A program made the translations under genes and the position numbers. DNA of 64,000 bases from Teretinema zuelzerae (GTDB lineage Bacteria; Spirochaetota; Spirochaetia; Treponematales; Treponemataceae), in the NCBI RefSeq assembly GCF_021021555.1, contig NZ_JAINWA010000001.1, forward strand, positions 496,001 to 560,000. Direction: 5' to 3'. Each line of letters starts with the position of its first letter. The first letter of the stretch is position 1. Positions 9,150 to 46,234 of the stretch are shown here, piece after piece. The notes under the pieces were generated by a model. It did not search any database, had not been told where the DNA came from, and was given only the letters and a program-made list of their open reading frames with translations.

Positions 9150-9869
9150 ATGAATAAAAAGATATATATTATTATCGTACTGATGAGTCTTATTAGTTTT
9201 GTTTGCTTTGGGAAAGATATAATCGATACTGAAATTGGTATTGGCTTTCTCGATAATAATACAATTACTTTTTATTCCCTCAATACATCATCTTCTTCGT
9301 TTGAAGCAAGCAAAATCTCTGAATTTTCAATTCAATCAAAAGATGAAATTATCAGTATTTCTGGTATTGGCATTGGTGTTATGAGTAATAACACTATAAA
9401 GTTTTATTCCCCTAATAAATCCTTTACTGCTTTTGAAGAAAGTAAAATGGCAGACTTTTCCATTCCGCCTAACGATAAGATTATTAGCGTCCCCGGCATT
9501 GGTATCGGGGTCATTAACAATAACACCATTAAGTTCTATTCCCCTAATAAATCCTTTACTGCTTTTGAAGAAAGTAAAATGGCAGACTTTTCCATTCCGC
9601 CTAACGATAAAATTATAAGTGTCCCTGGCATTGGTATCGGGATCATTAACAATAACACTATTAAGTTTTTTTCACCTAATAAAACTTTTACTGCTTTTGA
9701 AAAAAGTAAAATATCTGATTTTACTTTTCCGCCTAACAGTATAATTATTAGCGTTTCAAATATTGGAATTGGATTTCTTGAAAATAATACAATTAAGTTT
9801 TTTTCCCCAAACAGATCATTTACTTACCTAGAAAAAAGCAGAATAACTGATTTCGATCTACCCAACTAA
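9150..9869 (+). CDS. Secreted tandem-repeat protein between trbJ and trbL
   Basis: I chose ATG 9150 over GTG 9138 because GGAG lies just upstream. The 239-residue product begins with a signal peptide (KKIYIIIVLMSLISFVCFG). The rest is five copies of a 44-residue repeat built on GIGIG-x4-NNTIKF-[YF]-SPN-[KR]-[ST]-F. Copies two and three are almost identical in DNA. It is the only plus-strand gene inside the minus-strand transfer operon. In P-type systems the trbJ-trbL gap usually holds trbK, the entry-exclusion lipoprotein, so a role in surface or entry exclusion is worth considering. That is inference from position alone; I do not recognise the family. Confidence 0.75.
   Translation: MNKKIYIIIVLMSLISFVCFGKDIIDTEIGIGFLDNNTITFYSLNTSSSSFEASKISEFSIQSKDEIISISGIGIGVMSNNTIKFYSPNKSFTAFEESKMADFSIPPNDKIISVPGIGIGVINNNTIKFYSPNKSFTAFEESKMADFSIPPNDKIISVPGIGIGIINNNTIKFFSPNKTFTAFEKSKISDFTFPPNSIIISVSNIGIGFLENNTIKFFSPNRSFTYLEKSRITDFDLPN
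9231..9866 (+). repeat. Five in-frame 132-bp tandem repeats
   Basis: Unit boundaries are 9231, 9363, 9495, 9627 and 9759; the last unit is cut short by the stop codon. Units starting 9363 and 9495 differ at only a few bases, which indicates recent duplication or gene conversion. The outer units are more diverged. Copy-number change by slippage would add or remove 44 residues without a frameshift. Confidence 0.85.
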
Positions 9870-9943: not shown

Positions 9944-10741
9944 TTACTCGATCCAATCTTTTGAAAAACGACCTTTTTGTTCTACAGGCATATCAGCAGC
10001 CATATCCCTATCAGCTTGGTAACGTATATTCAACGCATTAAGACGGTTTGCTTCCATTTGTTGACCAATAAGTATTTGCATGAGTGCAGTCAGGGATTGT
10101 AAGACAGCCAAATTACTTTCAGATTTTTCTGCTTCTTTCATAATTGCATCCATCTCCTGTGCAGCAACCTTATTGTTTTCTTCGATTACATCTCCGATAA
10201 CAGTCATTTGCTTTGCTGCCTCATTAATTCTACCTTTCCATGCAACGGCATATGCATAGTTAGCAGGATTAAGACCATAGTGACTCCACGCTCTTGCTTT
10301 TTCCCAATCACTCATATCTGAGGTCATATCATTTACAACCATGTCAATTGCTTCGCCTGGAAGTCTATAGAATTGACTTATCGGGACTTTCTTCCCACCG
10401 ACTTCAACACTGATTGCTTTAAACCGATTCTCTGTCTTTCTCACAAAATCAATTTGTTTATCAACATACGAGACAGCATCGCTAAATGACTTAATCTCGC
10501 TCATATCCAATTGCTGCAATTGCTTCAATTGTGCCTGAGTGGTTACATAGGCGTACTCAACCTGCTTTATCGAGTTCAATACAGATTGGTACATTTGATA
10601 TCCATTATGAATTGTTTCAAGAATATGTGCCGCATCGATTACAGGTGCACCTTGTGCTCTAACCGGCATAGTTGACATGATGAATAGTATTGTACTGATA
10701 ACAAAATCCTTAATCTTTCTGTGATTCTGTTTTTTCATCAT
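9944..10741 (-). CDS. trbJ: TrbJ/VirB5-family protein
   Basis: This 265-residue protein has a signal peptide ending near VRAQG, followed by long amphipathic helices with the QLKQLQQLD coiled-coil stretch typical of TrbJ. VirB5-like proteins sit at the pilus tip or in the periplasm and help attach to the recipient. It overlaps the trbE stop by 4 bp (ATGA), so the two are translationally coupled. Sequence identity within this family is low; gene order is the main support. Confidence 0.82.
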   Translation of the reverse strand: MMKKQNHRKIKDFVISTILFIMSTMPVRAQGAPVIDAAHILETIHNGYQMYQSVLNSIKQVEYAYVTTQAQLKQLQQLDMSEIKSFSDAVSYVDKQIDFVRKTENRFKAISVEVGGKKVPISQFYRLPGEAIDMVVNDMTSDMSDWEKARAWSHYGLNPANYAYAVAWKGRINEAAKQMTVIGDVIEENNKVAAQEMDAIMKEAEKSESNLAVLQSLTALMQILIGQQMEANRLNALNIRYQADRDMAADMPVEQKGRFSKDWIE

Positions 10742-13182
10742 GAAGCCTCCTTCATGTACCGTGAATAATCGAGTCCTTTTACCTTCAAGATATCCGCTGC
10801 GTATTCGTATCCGCTCTCGTCTCCATGTTCAGCGACAAGCTTATCAAGAAGTTCATGATCTGGAGTTCCTATAAGTGCGAGTGTAATGCTATCACGCTTC
10901 AGATCAAGCTGAAACTTTCGACTTCCCATCGTTGAGGTGTATAAGTAGTCTTGTTTCATTATCCCATGAGAAAGAGAGCTGATTTCTGCATCAGTAAGAC
11001 CAAAGGTAGAATAGGCATGATGCATGGCCGGTGTTTCAGCCTCCGGATCTGCAAGGAAAATCTTTGTATGGCACTGTTGTATGATCGTTGAACACAAGGA
11101 CGAATTAACTGCATCAGCAACATCCTGTGTAGCAAATACAACAAAAACATTCTTCTTTCGGAGTGTTTTGAGCCACTCTTCGATCTTTGCTCTGAATATT
11201 GGATGACGAAGAAAAAGCCATGCTTCATCAAGGACAAGCAACGTGAGACGGCCAGTAAAGAGGCTTTCTATGTAATGGAAAATATATGATATAGCTGGAG
11301 CTACACACGATTCTCCCATTTGCATGAGATATTCCATTTCAAGTGTAATATACCGGCTATCAAGGGAGATTGAAGTGGAGGAAGCATCAAATATTGCTCC
11401 ATACTTACCGCCAAGTTGATACGGACGTAATGTTTCGCGTAGTAGCGGTTGTTTGGTTTCAGGATCAAGATAGTTAACACTCTGACAAAATGTAGTAATC
11501 GTTCGATTCGACTTTGGAATACTGGCCATTCGTTCAATTGCATCGGTAATAGCACTACTCATCGAAGGAGTGACTGTTACTCCTTGAATCTCTACCAGAG
11601 ACTCAATCCATTCAGTTGCCCAGGTACGATCAAGAATTGTTTCAAGGTGTGCTAACGGTTGAAAACACACACCATTCGTTCCCGGCTCATAGTAGCGACC
11701 ACCGAAGGCCATGGTTGGCTGTCTGGCAGATCGTCCTTTATCAAGTACGATTACCTGGCTGTCAGTATATTTGAAGAACTGTAATTCTAGAAGGTTAAGA
11801 AGCGTTGATTTTCCGGCTCCTGTCGGTCCAAGTATGATTGTATGGCCAACATCACGAGGATTTAAGCTAAGAAAAAAGGGAGTCCCATCTTGAGTCGAGC
11901 AAGTGACATGAGGTAGATCAATTCCACTTACATTACCTGCATGTTCATTTTCAATCATTCCTGCCCAGATTGCAGACAAAGGTACTACATGACTAAAATT
12001 ACTTGATACAACCGGTAGGGAGCGGATATTACTAACAACATCCCCTGGCATCATAGATTTCCATGCTTCGAATGCATTAAAGGTCTCTTCCTTTGCTACA
12101 AAACCAACACTCTGAACCAGTTTTTTGACTTCTTGAGCCTTCTTATGTGCTTTTTTTAAATCTGTATCCCATACCATTATATTTGAGGTATACAGGCCAA
12201 GAGAGACTTCATCTGTATCAAGAGCAATCTGAGCGGCCGCAGCATCTTCTTCCTTCACAATCGCGCCACCGTTTATTTGCTTTGGAGGCTCCTTTGTTGC
12301 AGAAGCAATAAAGGATTGGAACCAACCAACCTGATTTCCACGATGGTTTTGTTGAGCTTTTTCAGTCTTCTTTATCGCTTCCTCTTTATCAAGACAGATA
12401 TATCGTGTGCTCCATCGATACTCCAATTTTGCCTTATTGAGCTTGTCGAATATAGCCGGATACGTACTCTGAGGAAAATCGACAATACCAATTACTGGTA
12501 TATAGTTCTCCCCTAATTTCATAGTAAGCCCAATATCAAGGACTTCATCAGGAAGAAGCCGATCAATGAAAAAAGGATTATCAGGCAGAGTTAAGGAATG
12601 TCTATTATTAGATATAGTTGAATGAAGATACTCACAGGTCTGAAAATCACTCAAAGGAGCGATGAGTATTTTAGTAGCGAGAATTCCAACGATATCATCT
12701 GTAGTGGTTTCAAAATAGGAAATGTCTTCTTCAAGAGAGTTACTGTGTCCAGTTTCAGTATAAAAGAGATTCGTTGCTTTTTTTGTGATTTCTCTCGGAG
12801 GCCGATATGTGAAGGTTAAATAATATGAAGATTCAAAGTGCTTTCCGAAAGATCGAAAAGCTTCTTCTCGTTCTTTATCAATTAGATACGGAGCCAGATT
12901 CGTAAACTTACCACCAGGGTATTCTTGTGTTGAAAACCGTTGAACTTCCATTTGAATAGCCCAACCAGAACCAAGACGTTTCACTGAATTGCTCAAATGA
13001 AGAGAAAGATCATTGATATAAAAGGCGGCAGAGGACTCAAGGTCGGGTCCTCGAAAGGCAAAACTACGCTGGAGAAGTCCGTCTTTCTGAACAACGACTC
13101 CTTCTACGCTACTCGATAGATATCGCCATGGTAAGTGACAGCTCCAATAATCTGCATTTGTAGGTATTCCATTTTGTGCCAT
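10738..13182 (-). CDS. trbE: TrbE/VirB4-family transfer ATPase
   Basis: This 814-residue ATPase powers pilus biogenesis and substrate transfer at the inner membrane. The CagE/TrbE/VirB N-terminal domain covers roughly the first 400 residues. A Walker A motif (GPTGAGKST) is near residue 450 and a Walker B (LTLLVLDEAW) near 645, followed by the FATQD segment usual in VirB4. Length is normal and the motifs are intact. It is separated from trbD by 88 bp containing a perfect hairpin, the only sizeable gap in the trbB-trbJ run. Confidence 0.95.
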   Translation of the reverse strand: MAQNGIPTNADYWSCHLPWRYLSSSVEGVVVQKDGLLQRSFAFRGPDLESSAAFYINDLSLHLSNSVKRLGSGWAIQMEVQRFSTQEYPGGKFTNLAPYLIDKEREEAFRSFGKHFESSYYLTFTYRPPREITKKATNLFYTETGHSNSLEEDISYFETTTDDIVGILATKILIAPLSDFQTCEYLHSTISNNRHSLTLPDNPFFIDRLLPDEVLDIGLTMKLGENYIPVIGIVDFPQSTYPAIFDKLNKAKLEYRWSTRYICLDKEEAIKKTEKAQQNHRGNQVGWFQSFIASATKEPPKQINGGAIVKEEDAAAAQIALDTDEVSLGLYTSNIMVWDTDLKKAHKKAQEVKKLVQSVGFVAKEETFNAFEAWKSMMPGDVVSNIRSLPVVSSNFSHVVPLSAIWAGMIENEHAGNVSGIDLPHVTCSTQDGTPFFLSLNPRDVGHTIILGPTGAGKSTLLNLLELQFFKYTDSQVIVLDKGRSARQPTMAFGGRYYEPGTNGVCFQPLAHLETILDRTWATEWIESLVEIQGVTVTPSMSSAITDAIERMASIPKSNRTITTFCQSVNYLDPETKQPLLRETLRPYQLGGKYGAIFDASSTSISLDSRYITLEMEYLMQMGESCVAPAISYIFHYIESLFTGRLTLLVLDEAWLFLRHPIFRAKIEEWLKTLRKKNVFVVFATQDVADAVNSSLCSTIIQQCHTKIFLADPEAETPAMHHAYSTFGLTDAEISSLSHGIMKQDYLYTSTMGSRKFQLDLKRDSITLALIGTPDHELLDKLVAEHGDESGYEYAADILKVKGLDYSRYMKEAS

Positions 13183-15410: not shown

Positions 15411-17558
15411 TTACAGTCCTATAAGATTTGGAGTGAAGACCTCTACCTGTGGTACAGGAGAATCATCGGGATCGTCTACATAAAAAGAATCAGAAGGAGC
15501 TTCGCTTCCTGCGGCTTGTGAAGCCAGTTTCTGTACTTCACTATCTCTGATTCGATTGGTAAACCATGGATCTATTAAGCGTTCATCAACAACAACTTCA
15601 GAGGTCTTCTCAAGACAGGTAAACAGGGGAAGATCGTACCAGTGCCGTCCGGAGTTCCGAACTACGTTATGTGCGCATTGCTTCATCGCGCCTTTTTTAT
15701 CAGTGAAGGCCGGAGGTAAGAGTCGTTGTTTAAAGGGAGACTGTTCATAATAGACACATTTCTTTGCGATATAGGGTGGTTTACCCTGTGTTAGAATTAT
15801 CAGTTGGTCTGGAGGTAGTTTCATCACTTCATCAGGATTAATGAGATTTCTTTCTTGCTCGCCTCCAGAGATATTCAGATTATCAAGGCCAACAGAGAAT
15901 CGAGTACCACTCGTTGAAGTACTCGATTTCCAGATTGATTCCTTACCAATCATTTCTGAGCAAACTTTTCCGCTTTCAATCTCTCCAGGAGCGAAAAGGA
16001 GGACATTCTTGCAGTGTGCAAAGAACTGATGGTTTCTCCCATAAATATCAATAAGCTGGCTAGGTGACTGTATAATAAGGAGAAAGTGAATACCGTAGCC
16101 CGCAAGAATTCCCATTGATTCTTGTAATTCACTAAACTTACCCAGCTTATCGAACTCATCAAGAACAATTAAAAGTGGAACCTTCAGTTTCCGCACATCA
16201 TGACGCGTTTCTCCATCAGTGAATTTTCGGATAATAAGCATGATAAAAAGGCGTACCAAGGGAGCAAGACGACTCATGTGAGCATAGGGCATTGTCAAAT
16301 ACAGAGATATGGGAGTATCAGTCTTTTCAAACTCATCGATGTAAAAGTCATGGCTCATTGAGGACTCGCGTACTCGTGGGTCTTCAAACACCCGTAGAGA
16401 TTTCTGTACCGTCGAAAGAACTGATTGCCGCTCACGGTCAGGCCGCTTCAACTGATCTCCCGCTGCCGTCACTACGCGCTGGTGTATCTCCTGTGTACAA
16501 TGGACGCCTTCAATCATTTGCGTAAGTGAATACGTGTCATCCGCAGGATTTTCTGGATTAACCGCAGACAAGAACGCTTTAACGCCTGGAAGTGTTTTAT
16601 CGGGATAATCAGAGGTAAGAACATGGAGAATAACACCTGTGAGAAAGGCTATGGCGGCTTCACGAAAATGTTCACTGTTCGCGTCTCCTGAAGACTTGCC
16701 CGCCTGTGGCGTAAGAACCGTATCGGCAATGAGGTTCGCATATCCATAGGCATCTTTCCCGCCGGGAATTTCCATGAGCGGATTAAAATTATGTCCCGAT
16801 TCGCTTACTGGCGCATACCGATATACTTTTCCTTTTTTCGCTCGATATCCGCTGGTTTTTTCAAAGTTTTCACCCTTGAAGTCAAGTACGAGTACCGAGC
16901 CATGATAATACGTAAGTGTAGGGATAACCGTTGAAACACCTTTACCGCTTCGTGTCGGAGCGGCGAGAAGGGCATTTGTTATGCCGACACTCGTAATAAG
17001 GGGCGCATTTCGTTTCAGGTGAAGGGAAACGGAGCCCTTTTCTTTATTAAGACGCGCTTGCACCTGGGCATCGAAAAGCTGTCCATACACGACCCCTGCC
17101 TCGTTTCCAAGAAGGCCTTCTTTTTGAAGGTCTTTCTTTGTTCCCCATCGAGCTGTACCAAATATATTCTCAGCTGCCTGACGGAACCCACGGAAGTATG
17201 TAATGATCGTATAAAGAATAACCGCTGAAAATGAAATCACAAGCCAGGGAACTAAGGCTTTCTTTAATAGATAGGTTAGTTCAGCATCCTTAAAGAATGA
17301 AAAGAGCCAGAGCAGATACTTCCAGGGCTCATATAATGGATATGATCCGCCATTAAGCCACTCTTCACGAATGATTATGAAAGGATAGCCAATGAGTAGA
17401 GGATCATAGCCGATAAGGAAGGCGAAATACTGAGTTGAAATCCATAAGCCGGCAAATATGATTATAAATGCGAATATCTTATTAACCGCTGCGAACAGTT
17501 GTTCACGGTTCCCACTAGTCGGTTTTCCACGAAGGAATTCTGATGAGTTTGTAGCCAT
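15411..17558 (-). CDS. traG: TraG/VirD4-family coupling protein
   Basis: This 715-residue inner-membrane ATPase links the relaxase-DNA complex to the secretion channel. Hydrophobic N-terminal helices are followed by the IFGTARWG segment, Walker A (APTRSGKGVST) near residue 199, Walker B (LLIVLDEFDKLG) near 464 and the LIIQSPSQL sensor region. Length and motifs are standard for TraG. It heads the traG-trb operon, and its location next to the relaxase gene is usual. Confidence 0.95.
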   Translation of the reverse strand: MATNSSEFLRGKPTSGNREQLFAAVNKIFAFIIIFAGLWISTQYFAFLIGYDPLLIGYPFIIIREEWLNGGSYPLYEPWKYLLWLFSFFKDAELTYLLKKALVPWLVISFSAVILYTIITYFRGFRQAAENIFGTARWGTKKDLQKEGLLGNEAGVVYGQLFDAQVQARLNKEKGSVSLHLKRNAPLITSVGITNALLAAPTRSGKGVSTVIPTLTYYHGSVLVLDFKGENFEKTSGYRAKKGKVYRYAPVSESGHNFNPLMEIPGGKDAYGYANLIADTVLTPQAGKSSGDANSEHFREAAIAFLTGVILHVLTSDYPDKTLPGVKAFLSAVNPENPADDTYSLTQMIEGVHCTQEIHQRVVTAAGDQLKRPDRERQSVLSTVQKSLRVFEDPRVRESSMSHDFYIDEFEKTDTPISLYLTMPYAHMSRLAPLVRLFIMLIIRKFTDGETRHDVRKLKVPLLIVLDEFDKLGKFSELQESMGILAGYGIHFLLIIQSPSQLIDIYGRNHQFFAHCKNVLLFAPGEIESGKVCSEMIGKESIWKSSTSTSGTRFSVGLDNLNISGGEQERNLINPDEVMKLPPDQLIILTQGKPPYIAKKCVYYEQSPFKQRLLPPAFTDKKGAMKQCAHNVVRNSGRHWYDLPLFTCLEKTSEVVVDERLIDPWFTNRIRDSEVQKLASQAAGSEAPSDSFYVDDPDDSPVPQVEVFTPNLIGL

Positions 17559-17970: not shown

Positions 17971-19221
17971 TTATAGCGTTTTCTCAGGTCCTTCGCGTCC
18001 TTGTGCGTTACCTCGCACAGAGACGGCATATCCTTTTCTATAGTCATGTTGTTCACATTCTACGAGCAAATCGGTATGACTCTTCTTATTCATTGTCGGG
18101 GTTAGGCGACCTCGTTGATTTCTTTCAGGAATAACTTCAATTATTTGTCCTCCGGAAATCCTGGGTCTTGAGTAAAGCGGAATGAAGTATGCCTTTCCAT
18201 TGATAGACTCAAGAACTAGTGCATGATTATCTGATACTTCATCTGTTTTGAATATCTTTGTCACAATACCAGAGACCTTTCCCTGGGAGCCATCATAGAG
18301 ATTGAGATTTTGTTCTTCTGTATGTACAAGTGTCTTTCGCGCAGAAAGAAAAGCATTATATCGACCATTCGTTCGTAGTAATGATTCCCATTCGGGAACA
18401 AATATGTATTGACCATCTTTGAACTTACACAGATGTAGCGACTGAAGATGCGTGAGTCGCATACTGATACTCTCAGCATCTCGAGTAGTTAAACGTGGAA
18501 CAATCTTGAGGTCCGTAAGTTGTTCTTTAATTTTGTCATCAAGGATGGTATACCGATTCGCAGTAAGTTGTCCTTTACGTTCCAAGGCCATATCTTCCTT
18601 CGTGCGAGATCCAATTAACGATGTGCAAATGTTCCGTGCATTCTCACGCATAAAAGTCTTAACCACATCGGGAGGGAAGAATACATCCTTTCCATCCTTA
18701 TCTTTCCCATTAATCAGAAGGTGTACATGATGATGGGCTGTATCATAGTGATTTGCAGCTACCCAGAATAGTGAATAACCTGTTTGAGATTCAAGGGAAG
18801 CGATGAAGGTCTTTGCAAGAGTTTCAAGTGGAACCTTATTTGATGAAGGACTCAAAAATATTCGAAAATTCTTGTCTGTCATATTTTTTCTATACTCAAC
18901 CTCTGAAGTACCGTATAGGGTCGGTGCGTTACCATCTTTCCCTTTCCCTTCCTTCACCAAATACCGATTTATTTGCTCTTTATGTGCCTCCATACTCTTC
19001 GAGTAATGCATTTTGACTGTGCATCTCTGTCGAGTATCTATCGAAGTTCTTGTGCCATATTTTCTTCCACCACTATCAGAACTACTTTTCTTCCCTGCGC
19101 GGTACTTCCGCAGAACATATAGAGCAGTCAGTCCGAGTGCAAGGCTGCTTCTTTTTTTCTTTGGAGATTTCCAGGTTGGACTAATCTCATAATCTTCAAC
19201 ACCAATAAAGTGTTTTGCCAT
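17971..19221 (-). CDS. MOBP-type relaxase (DUF3363-like)
   Basis: This 416-residue protein should nick the transfer origin and pilot the strand into the recipient. The metal-binding His triad is clear in HYDTAHHHVHLLI near residue 157. The following helix carries ARNICTSLIGSRT, and the later RYTILD and TRDAESISMRLTHLQSL segments resemble the DUF3363 relaxases of Tn4371-like elements. N-terminal tyrosines (for example in RKYGTRTS and MHYSKSM) are candidates for the nucleophile. It starts 2 bp after the stop of the replication-like gene, so they are probably co-transcribed. No oriT was recognised nearby. Confidence 0.88.
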   Translation of the reverse strand: MAKHFIGVEDYEISPTWKSPKKKRSSLALGLTALYVLRKYRAGKKSSSDSGGRKYGTRTSIDTRQRCTVKMHYSKSMEAHKEQINRYLVKEGKGKDGNAPTLYGTSEVEYRKNMTDKNFRIFLSPSSNKVPLETLAKTFIASLESQTGYSLFWVAANHYDTAHHHVHLLINGKDKDGKDVFFPPDVVKTFMRENARNICTSLIGSRTKEDMALERKGQLTANRYTILDDKIKEQLTDLKIVPRLTTRDAESISMRLTHLQSLHLCKFKDGQYIFVPEWESLLRTNGRYNAFLSARKTLVHTEEQNLNLYDGSQGKVSGIVTKIFKTDEVSDNHALVLESINGKAYFIPLYSRPRISGGQIIEVIPERNQRGRLTPTMNKKSHTDLLVECEQHDYRKGYAVSVRGNAQGREGPEKTL

Positions 19222-19223
19222 AC

Positions 19224-20426
19224 CTAGCCAACTAGCCCAAAGTGTCGATCGAGATCTCTGAGTTTATCACTAACATTTCCCCCTGATCGAAGCGCTTGTG
19301 AGCGAGCAGAAATATAAAGCTCCTTAGTTTCATCGTCCATGCGATACAATCCTTTGAGTCGTGGTATATCATCAGCTACTGGGTTAATTGGAGAATCACA
19401 CTCCGAACAAGAACGTGTTGCTTGTGTGATTTGCTCATGATAACCACAGACAGGGCATATATATTCTTTGAGCAGGTCCTTTTTCTCGTCCAGTGATTTC
19501 TTACTAGTGAGTAATTGTGCTTGATAGCGCTGAATATAGACCTCTCGAAAGAATACAGTAAAGAAGTACCCAGAGAAATTTTTTATTTGCTTTGAGCTCT
19601 TGAGATAGTTATAAAACCAAATCAAGTACTCTTCTCCTACTCTGAAGCGATTAAGATAATCTGCTGCTGCGGGATAAAACTCAGAATCCAAAATCAATGT
19701 TGGATCAAGATTTTGCAACGTAGTACGAATAGCAGAAGCAGTATTTTGTTTATTATTTGGTTTAAGATATGAGTTTATATCTGGTATAGGTTTCCCCGTT
19801 TGGGGAAATGGATTTCCCGTTTTGGAGAAATGCATTTCCCCGTTTGGAGAAATGGATTTCCCGTTTTGGGGAAATGCATTTCCCCGTTTGGGGAAATGGA
19901 AGGATTGGAGATTTTCAACACTAGTAGTCTCATTTTCACAAGTCAATGAAGCAGTATCGATTGATTCAGTAAAGCAAACTGGTGTTTCGCTATTTGAATA
20001 GTGCTTGAAGGAATCTTCTGTGTCATCTTTTTGAGGTGTTTCATCTATTGGTAGTGGTGTAGATGGTTTTTTTGATACTCCTAAATACTTGTCAATCCAA
20101 TACTGCTCATCTACTAAACAATACCAACAAGTCCGATCAAAACCCGTATTATTGAAATTCCCTTTAACAATCAATCCCCGCTCGCGCAGTTTATTGAGAT
20201 AGGTTTCTATTTGCTTTTTTGAGTAATAAGGAAATTGTTGTACAAATGCTTGAATACTATTATATGTGAAGTAACGGTTAACAAGAGAACCGTTAATTTC
20301 TATCAGCTTTTGATTTTTATCATTCGTCTTATTATGGAGTATCCAATAACACAAATTTTGAAAAATCGTTGCAATATTGGCATCATGGAATAATTCAGCA
20401 ACTTCAGTATCAAATGTATGTATCAT
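19224..20426 (-). CDS. Replication-initiator-like winged-helix protein with zinc ribbon
   Basis: This 400-residue protein has a winged-helix N-terminus (about residues 1-125, with YFTYNSIQAFVQQFPYYSKKQIETYL-like helices) as in plasmid and phage replication initiators. A variable central part is partly encoded by 22-bp DNA repeats. A helical region with NFSGYFFTVFFRE follows, then a C-terminal zinc ribbon (CPVCG...CSEC near residues 322-345). It lies directly upstream of the relaxase gene. I infer a replication or replisome-loading role from fold pattern, zinc ribbon and repeats; the exact family is not certain. Confidence 0.65.
   Translation of the reverse strand: MIHTFDTEVAELFHDANIATIFQNLCYWILHNKTNDKNQKLIEINGSLVNRYFTYNSIQAFVQQFPYYSKKQIETYLNKLRERGLIVKGNFNNTGFDRTCWYCLVDEQYWIDKYLGVSKKPSTPLPIDETPQKDDTEDSFKHYSNSETPVCFTESIDTASLTCENETTSVENLQSFHFPKRGNAFPQNGKSISPNGEMHFSKTGNPFPQTGKPIPDINSYLKPNNKQNTASAIRTTLQNLDPTLILDSEFYPAAADYLNRFRVGEEYLIWFYNYLKSSKQIKNFSGYFFTVFFREVYIQRYQAQLLTSKKSLDEKKDLLKEYICPVCGYHEQITQATRSCSECDSPINPVADDIPRLKGLYRMDDETKELYISARSQALRSGGNVSDKLRDLDRHFGLVG
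19791..19900. repeat. Five 22-bp iteron-like direct repeats inside the replication-like gene
   Basis: Units begin at 19791, 19813, 19835, 19857 and 19879 and are exactly 22 bp each. Each has the form TTTCCC(C)GTTT(T)GG(G/A)GAAATG(G/C)A, so each is itself nearly palindromic, and unit junctions also form dyads around TGCA. Because 22 is not a multiple of three, successive units are read in different frames. The conservation is therefore at DNA level, as expected for initiator-binding iterons of a replication origin. Confidence 0.8.
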
Positions 20427-21430: not shown

Positions 21431-21829
21431 TTAGTAAATATCCATAAGGAAAGATTCTTCTTCAGCCGGATAATCTGATGATGAAGGAGCCTCATTACTT
21501 ATTTTTGGACTAGAGAGAAGTTGAACTTCGTTTATGATTAGTTCATTACTTGAGTATTTCTTACCTTCCTGCTCCCATTGATTTTGGCGCAGTTCAGCTT
21601 CTATACCAATGAGTGCACCTTTTTTGAGATAAGGATGTAGACCTTCTGCCATTTTCCCGAACACCACTAACTTGAAAAAGTTTGCTTTTTTTGACCAGGT
21701 CTCCCCTGTTTTCTTTGAATAATTATTCGCAAGCGAGAACTCGCACAAGACTAGATTAGCGCCCTTGCGTTTCAGTTCTGCATCTCTCACTAAACGTCCC
21801 GTAAGAGACACATGGTTTAAATCGCCCAT
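21431..21829 (-). CDS. ssb: Single-stranded DNA-binding protein
   Basis: Start ATG 21829 gives MGDLNHVSLTGRLVRDAEL, the canonical SSB N-terminus; the longer open frame upstream is not coding-like. The 132-residue protein has the OB-fold FFKLVVFGKMAEGLHPYLKKG segment and an acidic C-terminal tail ending EEESFLMDIY, close to the DDIPF-type tip that recruits partners. It probably protects transferred or replicating single strands of the element. Confidence 0.9.
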   Translation of the reverse strand: MGDLNHVSLTGRLVRDAELKRKGANLVLCEFSLANNYSKKTGETWSKKANFFKLVVFGKMAEGLHPYLKKGALIGIEAELRQNQWEQEGKKYSSNELIINEVQLLSSPKISNEAPSSSDYPAEEESFLMDIY

Positions 21830-21984
21830 CTTCAAAAACCTCCGTACTGATTTACTATCTTCAAGAGAAGCTAATTCACGAACTCGTGATTCAAAGAAAC
21901 CTCCGGATGAGTGGTATACTCGAAGGCAACCAAACCGTCCCCGCGTATGTAGGGCGAAATACCAATCCCCCGGAGGGTAAAAAC

Positions 21985-22149
21985 ATGACTCAAATAATTT
22001 GATCAAAACAAATCTTAAATTTGGTGAATGCAATGGCTGAAGCAAATGGCACAACGTATGATTTAACAAAAGGAAGTCTCGAAGACCTTGCAAAGCAGAC
22101 TGTAGCTGCTGCTAAAGTCTTTCAGGACTTTCTTGAATTGAAAGACTAA
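21985..22149 (+). pseudogene. Small plus-strand ORF with in-frame TGA at codon 6
   Basis: GGAGGG lies 7 bp before ATG 21985. The frame reads five codons (MTQII), then TGA, then stays open for 48 codons to the TAA at 22147-22149. The downstream part (from ATG 22033: MAEANGTTYDLTKGSLEDLA then KQTVAAAKVFQDF) looks like a small folded protein. Options are a nonsense mutation, a 5-residue leader peptide followed by re-initiation at TTG 22021, GTG 22024 or ATG 22033, or recoding. Position between minus-strand genes is unusual. Confidence 0.5.
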
Positions 22150-23477: not shown

Positions 23478-23813
23478 CTACCTTTTTTGAAATGGGTCTT
23501 CTGTATTCTGCTGTACGACGGAGGCATAGAAACATTCTTCAATACAATGGAGGCTGTCCTTAACTTGCCGCATAAATCTATTAAGACTTTTTTTATCCTT
23601 GAAAAACCAAGTATCTGCATGGAGGCGATCATCAAGGACGGTACAGACAAAACCTACTCCAGTAAAAATCTGGTAAGGAGCCATCCGTGAAAGTCTTCTC
23701 TTTGAAAAGTACATCTTAGGATGCAACAAGATGGTATCGACCTGACCATAGACGAGCTTCTTATCATGAGAACGATACAGTCCGCGCGTTTCGCTCTTTT
23801 TTACGGTACTCAT
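23478..23813 (-). CDS. Hypothetical protein between parB and the zincin
   Basis: This 111-residue protein overlaps the parB stop by 4 bp and is followed closely by the zincin gene, so it belongs to the par operon. It is basic, with YRSHDKKLVYGQVDTILLHP and a C-terminal helix around FMRQVKDSLHCIEECF. No family recognised. Confidence 0.65.
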   Translation of the reverse strand: MSTVKKSETRGLYRSHDKKLVYGQVDTILLHPKMYFSKRRLSRMAPYQIFTGVGFVCTVLDDRLHADTWFFKDKKSLNRFMRQVKDSLHCIEECFYASVVQQNTEDPFQKR

Positions 23814-24553
23814 ATCCCGTACTCCTTTACATACGATGAAAGGCCTTCAATATCACCAGAGGTAAGAAATGACTGAATAGTAGTGATAATCTGTATGACT
23901 TCTTTTGAAGGCTTCTTATCCTTACTCTTCCTACCAGTCGATTCAGTCATTGTTTCCCGAACGAGGTGATACGCTTTATTAAGCGTGAGTTCACCTGACT
24001 CGATCTGTTTTTTGATTTCATCGGTAGCATATTTTTCCACCATGCGGGTCTTCTCAACCCGTGAGGTGGAAATACCCAAAACCTCTGCCGAACGTGCAGC
24101 GGATTTTCCGTCACCCGTTGCCCCACGTCCTCGTGTTTTAAGAGAATCCACTACTTTAAGCGCTCTCATAAGCTCCGCATCTGAAAGGTTGCGCCTTTCA
24201 GTTTGAAGGCTTATGGCATATTCAAGCGCATCTTCAATAGAAGAAAACTCGTGTAAGAAACATGGGATTTCGTGGAGTCCGGCACGAAGAGCGCCTTCCC
24301 GCCTATGATGTCCGTCAATAAGGATATGTTTCCCATTGAAATTCCATATATGTACCGGTTGGGAATTATCGTATCCGCCTTCCATGATTCGTTGCGTTAT
24401 TTTCTCCACGTTACCAGGAATAAGCGGAAACAGTTCCTGGAACTCCTTCTGGAGCTTAATTTCGGTAAGTGGTATAAGACGCGCCAATAGCACGCGCCCG
24501 GAATTATTAAGGTCAAGCTTTTTCTCGTCTTTCAGAATGGTTAGTGGCTTCAT
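23810..24553 (-). CDS. parB: ParB/Spo0J-family partition protein
   Basis: This 247-residue protein has the ParB N-terminal domain with DGHHRREGALRAG near residue 80 (the CTP/arginine-rich box), then QTERRNLSDAELMRALK, and a helix-turn-helix region (SAEVLGISTSRVEKTRMVEKYA). It should bind centromere-like sites and work with the adjacent ParA. The presence of partition genes suggests the element spends time as an autonomous replicon. No obvious parS cluster was found nearby. Confidence 0.9.
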   Translation of the reverse strand: MKPLTILKDEKKLDLNNSGRVLLARLIPLTEIKLQKEFQELFPLIPGNVEKITQRIMEGGYDNSQPVHIWNFNGKHILIDGHHRREGALRAGLHEIPCFLHEFSSIEDALEYAISLQTERRNLSDAELMRALKVVDSLKTRGRGATGDGKSAARSAEVLGISTSRVEKTRMVEKYATDEIKKQIESGELTLNKAYHLVRETMTESTGRKSKDKKPSKEVIQIITTIQSFLTSGDIEGLSSYVKEYGI

Positions 24554-24567
24554 TTCCTTTTCCTTCT

Positions 24568-25329
24568 TTAGAAAGCAACCGGTTCGCTTACCGGCTCTCC
24601 GGTGATTATTTCGACTAACGAAGCGACACCGTCAAAAATCTTTTCGCTTGTTTTACGGGTAATCTTCTGATCCCGGTCAATGCGGTTTGTTACCGCAGAT
24701 GTTTTAGGCAGATAAATGTTAAGGCACTGGGTGAAGGTCTTTTTATAGAGTGATATGTACTGATAATGGGATGAGTTTTTATTTTGGGCGTATTGATTAA
24801 CACCATTGAAAAAAAGACCCCAGGAAGACATTTTCTCGGCTTCCACAATCTTACTTTGCAAAGTAAGACATGAAATCATGTCGAACTGGCACAATAGTAC
24901 CGGAGTTAAAATCAGGTCAGACGCATAGATTGCGTTATTGATCGTGGAATTAAATCCCTGGGACGTATCAAGGAGAATGTAGTCATAGAGAGATAGTTCT
25001 TTATGTTCCATTTCCACAAGACGAGAAAGAACCAGATCATCCTTCAATACCAGGTGTTCAATGTCACTGTTTGAAGGAATTAACTCTATATTCTCATTTT
25101 GGGTGGATACGATATTATCTGTAAGGCGACCAGTCTTTACGGCCTGAGAAAACCCTTTCCCCCGCAACCCGGCTTTGCTTTCAAGATAATGCAATGTCGT
25201 TGAATTGCTGTAGTCGGTATCAATTACCAATACCGACTTGCCGACAGCAGCCAGGTAATTTGCGATTAAAATGGTGGAGGAAGATTTCCCAACTCCACCT
25301 TTGGTTGATACAAAAGATACGATTTTCAT
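24568..25329 (-). CDS. parA: ParA-family partition ATPase
   Basis: ATG 25329 has AAAGGAG 9 bp upstream; the open frame to 25368 is an over-extension. The 253-residue protein begins MKIVSFVSTKGGVGKSSST, a deviant Walker A, followed by VIDTDYSNSTT and DYILLDTSQGF. ParA forms ATP-dependent gradients on the nucleoid to segregate ParB-bound DNA. It is 14 bp upstream of parB. Confidence 0.92.
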   Translation of the reverse strand: MKIVSFVSTKGGVGKSSSTILIANYLAAVGKSVLVIDTDYSNSTTLHYLESKAGLRGKGFSQAVKTGRLTDNIVSTQNENIELIPSNSDIEHLVLKDDLVLSRLVEMEHKELSLYDYILLDTSQGFNSTINNAIYASDLILTPVLLCQFDMISCLTLQSKIVEAEKMSSWGLFFNGVNQYAQNKNSSHYQYISLYKKTFTQCLNIYLPKTSAVTNRIDRDQKITRKTSEKIFDGVASLVEIITGEPVSEPVAF

Positions 25330-25395
25330 ACTTGAGCTCTCCTTTAGTACGGTTTCAACTAGTCTCATAACATGGAATAGTTAATTATTTGTATA

Positions 25396-36852: not shown

Positions 36853-38151
36853 GATTATGCAACCTTTTTTCTGTAAATTTCGTTCAAAGCAGGTCGGTCG
36901 GTTGACTCAGGCAAGTACCGTTTGTCATTCTGCCACTGGTCGTTTTGTTCGATCAGCATAGAAGCCGCAAGGCGAAGTAAACTCTCGGCGTTCGGGAAAA
37001 CACCCACTACTTTCGTTCGCCTGTTAATCTCCTTCATCTGGCGTTCTGCCAGATTCGATGTTCGCATCTTCCTCCTGTGATTTTCAGGGATGTTGAATAC
37101 ACTCAATCCTTCCCGTATATTTACATCGGCCCAAGCCGCTAAACGCGGATGGGTTTTTTGATATTTTTCAACGAGCTGTTGCAAATATCGTTCTGCATTC
37201 TCGCGGTCAGGCGCATTGAACACCTTCCGAATATCGGCGGCTACCAGCGGGATGTCATCTTTTTTCGTGACGTAGGAGTGGGCATTCTGCTGCAGATGAA
37301 ACTGGCAGCGTTGCCACAGAATTCCAGGGAAGACAGCATCGATTGCAGCGCGAAGTCCTGAGTGGTCATCACTGGTGATCATTCGAAGGCCGTGCATCCC
37401 TCGTCGTACGAGATCCTCGAGAAAGGAACGCCAGTTTACCTCTGCCTCACTGTTCGCGACTTCGGCGTCAAGAATATGCCGATTCCCGCTGTAATCAACG
37501 CCAATAGCCACTAGAAGAGCCTGCTTGACCACCTGGGAACCGACGCGCACCGATTCATAGGTCGCATCAAGTACCAAGTATTGAATCTGTCCGACAGGCT
37601 GCGCCTTCCAAGACGTAATCTCTTCATCGAGCTCCTTTGCCAGCCTGCTGACCTGGGACGAGCTGACTTCGGTGCCACAAAGAATTTCGACGATATCCGA
37701 GACCCTGCGGGTACTTACTCCTTTGACATACATTTCGGCGATGGCGAGCTTGAGAGCACGCTCACTGCGCATGCCTTTCTCGATGCAGCTGGGGTAAAAC
37801 TCCATCCCGCGAACTTGTGGTACTTTCAAGAGGACTTTCCCGGTCGCAAGATTGAGCGTCTTGTCTTTAAATCCATTGGCATGCCCAGTACGCTCTTCCG
37901 TGCGTTCATATGGTTCGGCGTTGAGAGCCTTTGCTCGCTCGATCTTCATGGCCTCATTGACGACCACTTCGATAACACGAGAAAATTTATTGTCCCCATT
38001 CGCTGCCAGCATCTGGATCACTTGCTCCAAAAGTGTATATTCTGATTCGTAGGCCATCGGGTTCTCCTTATGGTTGGTTTGGTCACTTACCATTTGAGCC
38101 CGATCGGCCTGCTTTTTTCAACCCAATTTACAGAAAGAATTGTACACTAAC
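36853..38151 (-). mobile_element. IS256-family insertion sequence
   Basis: The element is 1299 bp with imperfect terminal inverted repeats sharing CTGTAAATT about 17-25 bp from each end, and an 8-bp target duplication ATTATTAA (36845-36852 and 38152-38159). It contains one full-length transposase gene whose stop lies close to the left end. It interrupts the DUF6338 cassette gene. Confidence 0.92.
36855..38057 (-). CDS. IS256-family (mutator) transposase
   Basis: ATG 38057 with AGGAG upstream gives 400 residues. It has the DDE catalytic acids: VLDATYESVR, SDDHSGLRAAIDAVFP (with WQRCQFHLQQNA) and an Glu in the C-terminal ENHRRKMRTSNLAER region. Length and motifs are normal; it appears intact. 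GC content is clearly higher than the flanking cassette DNA, showing a different origin. Confidence 0.95.
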   Translation of the reverse strand: MAYESEYTLLEQVIQMLAANGDNKFSRVIEVVVNEAMKIERAKALNAEPYERTEERTGHANGFKDKTLNLATGKVLLKVPQVRGMEFYPSCIEKGMRSERALKLAIAEMYVKGVSTRRVSDIVEILCGTEVSSSQVSRLAKELDEEITSWKAQPVGQIQYLVLDATYESVRVGSQVVKQALLVAIGVDYSGNRHILDAEVANSEAEVNWRSFLEDLVRRGMHGLRMITSDDHSGLRAAIDAVFPGILWQRCQFHLQQNAHSYVTKKDDIPLVAADIRKVFNAPDRENAERYLQQLVEKYQKTHPRLAAWADVNIREGLSVFNIPENHRRKMRTSNLAERQMKEINRRTKVVGVFPNAESLLRLAASMLIEQNDQWQNDKRYLPESTDRPALNEIYRKKVA

Positions 38152-46134: not shown

Positions 46135-46234
46135 AAGTAAAGTTCTTATGTTATAAGAACTTGTATAAGAAACCCGTTAAAGCGGGCCATTATTAATCGG
46201 TTTTCTGTCAGAAGAATTGACAGAAAAGAGAGGA

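Follow-up and report, generated by a model that had tools for sequence, protein, structure and literature searches.

Introduction

Origins of replication that lie inside a gene are already known from lambda O and from RepA_N plasmids. In phage lambda, the iterons to which the O protein binds lie mid-gene in O itself, next to an AT tract that melts (PMC7466680); the annotation of the lambda record places these iterons at nt 349-433 of O, with a spacing of 20-24 bp. RepA_N-type plasmids such as pLS32, pAD1 and pSK41 have their iterons within the sequence that encodes the initiator (PMC3155836), and in SGI1 the oriV lies downstream of rep, has 17-bp iterons and is served by a RepA_C-type protein (PMC7433901).

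Here, we analysed a 64,000-nt stretch of Teretinema zuelzerae DNA (contig NZ_JAINWA010000001.1, positions 496,001-560,000; hereafter the window), in which a gene termed rep holds five iterons followed by an AT-rich element (Table 1). The original prediction, that a single locus may serve as both initiator and origin in the way of lambda O, is supported by the sequence evidence described below, and we infer that this origin fires. We put the probability at roughly 0.85 that rep is a self-contained initiator-plus-origin gene, which would act in the manner of lambda O on an integrated conjugative element.

The locus resembles lambda O and ori-lambda in that a winged helix-turn-helix (wHTH) initiator carries iterons mid-gene, behind the DNA-binding domain, with an AT-rich tract adjoining them. 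It differs in that the protein lacks PF04492 (Phage_rep_O; no match at E≤1), the units, 22 bp long, have different dyad sequences, a near-invariant 12-mer repeat makes up the AT-rich element, and the host element is conjugative rather than a phage, with no P-type helicase loader seen beside rep. The phrog_11233 or O-like initiators of phiLdb, B124-14 and the Flavobacterium elemo phages share the wHTH family, the array position and the AT-rich element, whereas the zinc-ribbon-like C-terminal domain and the conjugative host element with its type IV secretion system (T4SS) set the window protein apart from them. Iterons inside the initiator gene are shared with RepA_N plasmids as well, yet the architecture is another one and no RepA_N domain was found in the window protein (no Pfam match at E≤1). 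As in SGI1, the integrated mobile element in the window has an initiator of its own and a candidate iteron origin distinct from the relaxase; its iterons, however, are 22 bp long and lie inside rep, unlike the downstream 17-bp iterons of SGI1. What is new is the family-wide, frame-independent DNA cassette in fixed register, and its conjugative-element host, both undescribed as far as the literature searched shows.

Table 1. Features of the rep locus and of the element around it, in window positions.
Feature	Position	Strand	Basis and remarks
rep, encoding a 400-aa wHTH initiator; candidate origin internal	19224..20426	(-)	phrog_11233 match; two further copies
N-terminal winged-helix domain, residues 1-105	20112..20426	(-)	AlphaFold2 helices and wing; BFVD matches
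Recognition helix, residues 70-82	20181..20219	(-)	K71, E74 and T75 covary with iteron arm bases
Five 22-bp iterons	19791..19900	(-)	TRF; exactly this interval, inside the rep ORF; fixed register with AT-rich element
Iteron dyad cores	19879-19897, 19857-19875, 19835-19853, 19813-19831, 19791-19809	(-)	
AT-rich element CCTATACCAGATATAAAC-TCATATCTTAAA-CCAAATAATAAA, 12-mers, candidate DNA unwinding element	19749..19790	(-)	near-invariant in homologues
C-terminal domain, residues 222-378, zinc-ribbon-like CPVC/CSEC	19293..19763	(-)	common to G005 and partly to G020 proteins
Relaxase gene, directly downstream of rep	17971..19221	(-)	PF11843 E=4e-8, weak PF03432; RlxS-like, below cut-off
T4SS coupling protein (VirD4/TraG)	15411..17558	(-)	PF02534 E=2e-82
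VirB4/TrbE-like ATPase	10738..13182	(-)	best NCBIfam TrbE/VirB4, E=6e-229, below curated cut-offs
SSB gene	21431..22093	(-)	PF00436 E=3e-21
ParB-like gene	23810..24553	(-)	position beside parA and reading; no Pfam match; relatives in L182 and L191
ParA gene	24568..25368	(-)	PF13614 E=1e-21

Frame-breaking iterons inside rep

The array had been described as five exact 22-bp units. Their number, period and position stand, but exactness was the point on which the original prediction, correct in substance, was wrong: TRF matches amount to 84% for a period of 22 and to 95% for one of 44. Two unit types take turns, AAACGGGG (units 1, 3 and 5) and AAAACGGG (units 2 and 4), and CTCC replaces CCCC in units 3 and 4. 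The unit is near-palindromic (TTTCCCC-AAAC-GGGGAAA), and the unit starts fall in frames 2, 0, 1, 2 and 0 of rep, so that each unit is translated in a new frame; both properties had been proposed. The unit pattern was found at seven sites in the window with at most 3 mismatches, against 0.31 expected, and five of these are the array itself with 0-1 mismatch each. In a stricter form, the pattern occurs in the whole 3.6-Mb genome only in the three copies of rep. A perfect DnaA box was looked for and not found.

Conservation of the AT-rich element

Alignment of all genes on the AT-rich element revealed a fixed register, in which the 22-bp units run right up to AACCTATACCAGATATAAAC. The gene in the window has 22-bp dyad iterons behind the wHTH domain in register with CCTATACCAGAT, a criterion that is defined in this work and not taken from a published scheme. 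Codon choice at the element is fixed, with ATA in 63/63, CCA in 63/63 and GAT in 54/54 cases, compared with background shares of 0.38, 0.40 and 0.66 in the same genes outside the element. The element is kept in ORFs of 25-57% GC, and in 70 of 76 genes the AT content of the 60 nt that follow the iterons exceeds that of the remaining ORF. An 18-mer of the element occurs in the 3.6-Mb genome only in the three rep copies.

The reading frame of the element is not always the same. Nine Rhodobacterales loci have CAGATATAAAC in another frame, encoding the peptide KNRYKP, and in phage contig L204 the register of array and element is normal but their translation uses another frame (DLYQIVNADGK), with a C-terminus that is still homologous to relatives. 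These two lineages are unrelated. As read from the sequence, the common form of the element contains a TAA stop in one of its two alternative frames, which may explain why one frame dominates.

Scanning viral contigs with an AT-rich 19-mer also returned many matches outside the family (L215, L219, L228 and others), mostly in short reading frames and without 22-bp repeats; these are probably due to chance and were set aside.

Repeats, dyads and covariation in homologues

Homologues were gathered from viral contigs, genomes and phages, and the counts that follow hold among the matches listed. For the pattern search, a three-sequence alignment was usable, while a seven-sequence alignment was too diverse; direct search of genome contigs and viral contigs yielded no close homologues of rep. 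The layout of iterons and AT-rich element is present in more than 100 related genes, mostly of phages. After deduplication, the set comprised 94 homologues, most of them from phages. Significant repeats, exceeding all codon shuffles, follow the wHTH domain in 79 of these, and in 54 of the 79 the period is exactly 22 bp. Neighbouring ORFs, which served as controls, had repeats in 7 of 70 cases, one of them at lag 22.

The half-site sequence varies by lineage and the period and dyad are constant. A single dyad centre at -10.5 gives an excess of 82 complementary pairs over expectation, compared with at most 22 for any other centre. The variable, lineage-specific arm positions pair with each other in three successive units (p ~0.0005-0.001 each, phylogeny ignored). 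In an APC-corrected mutual-information analysis between protein and DNA, which likewise ignores phylogeny, the top three pairs are E74/-5, K71/-8 and K71/-6, and residues 69-77 account for 16 of the top 50 pairs against 4.7 expected. Because the covariation ignores phylogeny, we take it as strong support, short of proof, for a protein that recognises sites within the gene encoding it.

Covarying dyad sites within the gene of a wHTH protein would equally fit an autorepressor, with the repeats forming an operator that shuts off rep transcription and the true origin located elsewhere. We regard this as improbable: the array sits behind the DNA-binding domain, ~530 nt into the gene, with no further site upstream of rep (the nearest other matches in the window, at 25010 and 28817, have three mismatches), an operator would not be expected to adjoin a near-invariant AT-rich element whose register with the last unit is fixed, and the homologues include annotated phage replication initiators adjoining DnaC or primase-helicase genes.

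The repeats could also be selected as a peptide linker, the DNA repeat being a by-product of recent tandem duplication. In whichever frame it is read, the window array encodes a peptide with a loose FPxxGxx rhythm, and a rep gene in genome G020 has an in-frame 33-bp repeat whose copies are 99% alike. The period of 22 in most homologues, however, means that frames change; half-sites differ among lineages while period and dyad stay, codon choice at the AT-rich element is fixed, the element is out of frame in two lineages, and the encoded residues are mostly low-confidence or disordered in the AlphaFold2 model. We therefore consider a peptide origin of the repeats very improbable. Homologues that keep the peptide repeats with shuffled codons had been named as the observation that would speak against selection on DNA; the opposite was found, since homologues keep the 22-bp period, the dyad and the AT-rich element and the peptide shifts with the frame. 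Selection on DNA, as originally proposed, is thus the reading we retain.

Domains of the Rep protein

The phrog_11233 replication initiation profile, which spans the N-terminal domain, matches residues 3-119 of the protein (E=3.2e-24). The predicted winged helix is supported by the AlphaFold2 model, with pLDDT >90 over most of residues 11-90, and its BFVD matches are phage replication proteins. A fold search of the PDB returned wHTH neighbours of the TubR and ArsR type at E>0.01 only. The C-terminal part is modelled as helical with a zinc-ribbon-like motif. A zinc ribbon had been predicted as well: its CPVC...CSEC cysteines are visible, but the Pfam matches are sub-threshold, and a PDB sequence search gave nothing beyond zinc ribbons of rubrerythrin and rubredoxin (E=0.03 or worse) and a single weak, unrelated match. 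We presume that the C-terminal domain is the replisome-recruiting part.

This C-terminal domain recurs behind other N-terminal domains. It is common to a protein of genome G005 whose N-terminal domain is of the lambda-O type (PF04492), and residues 264-363 are shared with G020 proteins that carry yet another N-terminal domain; by reading, the relatives in both genomes adjoin parA/parB-like genes. The same C-terminal domain with differing N-terminal domains implies that DNA-binding domains have been swapped on a conserved, presumed effector domain. We found no internal repeats in the chimeric G005 initiator (L009, G005:C2:660563-661006). The G020 rep gene with the different N-terminal domain (L022, 7704-7879) contains 5.3 near-exact 33-bp repeats with TGTCCA...TGGACA dyads and adjoins parA/parB-like and SSB-like genes.

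We lean towards the view that wHTH domain, dyad iterons and AT-rich melting element form one exchangeable cassette across phages of many bacterial phyla, which has been swapped onto different C-terminal domains, links specificity to site and has been captured by conjugative elements. With the origin embedded in the gene, the specificity of the protein and its binding site would stay linked.

The sequence establishes position, period, frame-breaking, dyad, recognition-helix covariation, conservation of the AT-rich element as DNA and the confinement of both elements to the three rep copies; binding, melting, helicase recruitment and replication of an excised form belong to a working model. In this model, the N-terminal winged helix would bind the five iterons, probably as a dimer per dyad; these mid-gene sites would be spaced one helical face apart within the rep coding sequence. 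The nucleoprotein complex on the array would melt the adjoining AT-rich 12-mers (CCTATACCAGATATAAAC and following), the zinc-ribbon-like domain may recruit the host replicative helicase machinery, and the rep module would replicate the excised circle of the integrated T4SS element. No DnaB/DnaC-type helicase gene was noticed among the element ORFs read, so helicase loading would have to rely on host factors or on an unrecognised gene.

If so, 22-bp dyads in register with CCTATACCAGATATAAAC provide a rule, readable from sequence, that points to the probable origin of many phages and some plasmids annotated with a hypothetical replication protein only. Covariation between recognition helix and binding site within single genes could moreover be used for a DNA-recognition code.

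The conjugative element around rep

Downstream of rep follow the relaxase and coupling protein genes and then VirB11/VirB4 and more T4SS-type genes; upstream lie nuclease, SSB, ParB-like and ParA genes. The hallmarks of an integrative conjugative element, namely T4SS, coupling protein and relaxase, are present. With rep in such a setting, replication of a T4SS conjugative element may not depend on its relaxase alone and may start from a lambda-like origin.

Two further copies of rep lie at C1:1558737-1559936 and C2:13013-14212 (96% amino-acid identity), and all three are full-length and open. Two near-identical arrays in the genome stem from one lineage. The window copy differs from the second copy at 41 of 1203 nt (3.4%; 20 changes alter an amino acid and 21 are silent), with no difference in nt 457-661, a segment that takes in the iterons and the beginning of the AT-rich element, against ~7 expected by proportion. 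Divergence of the copies with none in the iterons argues that this segment is under constraint.

These copies bear on the idea that rep is a decayed or silent prophage remnant whose origin is unused, with the relaxase alone replicating the element by rolling circle. Well-studied T4SS ICEs do rely on their relaxase, acting at oriT, for replication (PMC7433901), we found no rep family member next to conjugation genes elsewhere, and related relaxases in 14 other genomes are not accompanied by a rep of the window type. Three intact copies, the constraint on the iterons and the packaging of rep with SSB and ParA/ParB-like genes nevertheless make a remnant unlikely, although it is the least improbable of the alternatives, and we continue to favour an active initiator-plus-origin gene.

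The right end of the element is set by two different flanks, at C1:1552115 and C2:6391. As the second (C1) and third (C2) copies share this right end and differ in their flanks, the element has moved. G000:C2 1-6390 and C1:1535000-1552115 hold the same element copy on two different flanks (99.8%, 2 mismatches, 34 gaps), which suggests recent movement or a strain mixture. Contig C2 was considered as a circular plasmid and rejected, since it holds the element joined to a different right flank and its ends do not overlap. Among the ORFs read in the element's shared part, none was recognised as an integrase, and no tRNA was found nearby; a Tyr-integrase gene at 46217 falls outside the shared part.

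Further genes of the region were recorded in passing. Within the element, opposite to the T4SS genes, a gene at 9234-9824 (+) contains three to four copies of a 132-bp repeat (~81% alike) and encodes a 243-aa protein of 44-aa repeats. Upstream in the element, L030 6796-12033 encodes a 1745-aa polyvalent protein with MuF-C, RadC and ArdC domains beside a second ArdC-like gene. A transposase-like gene at 36855-38093 (-) recurs in the flank of contig C2, the two copies being 100% identical over 1299 bp.
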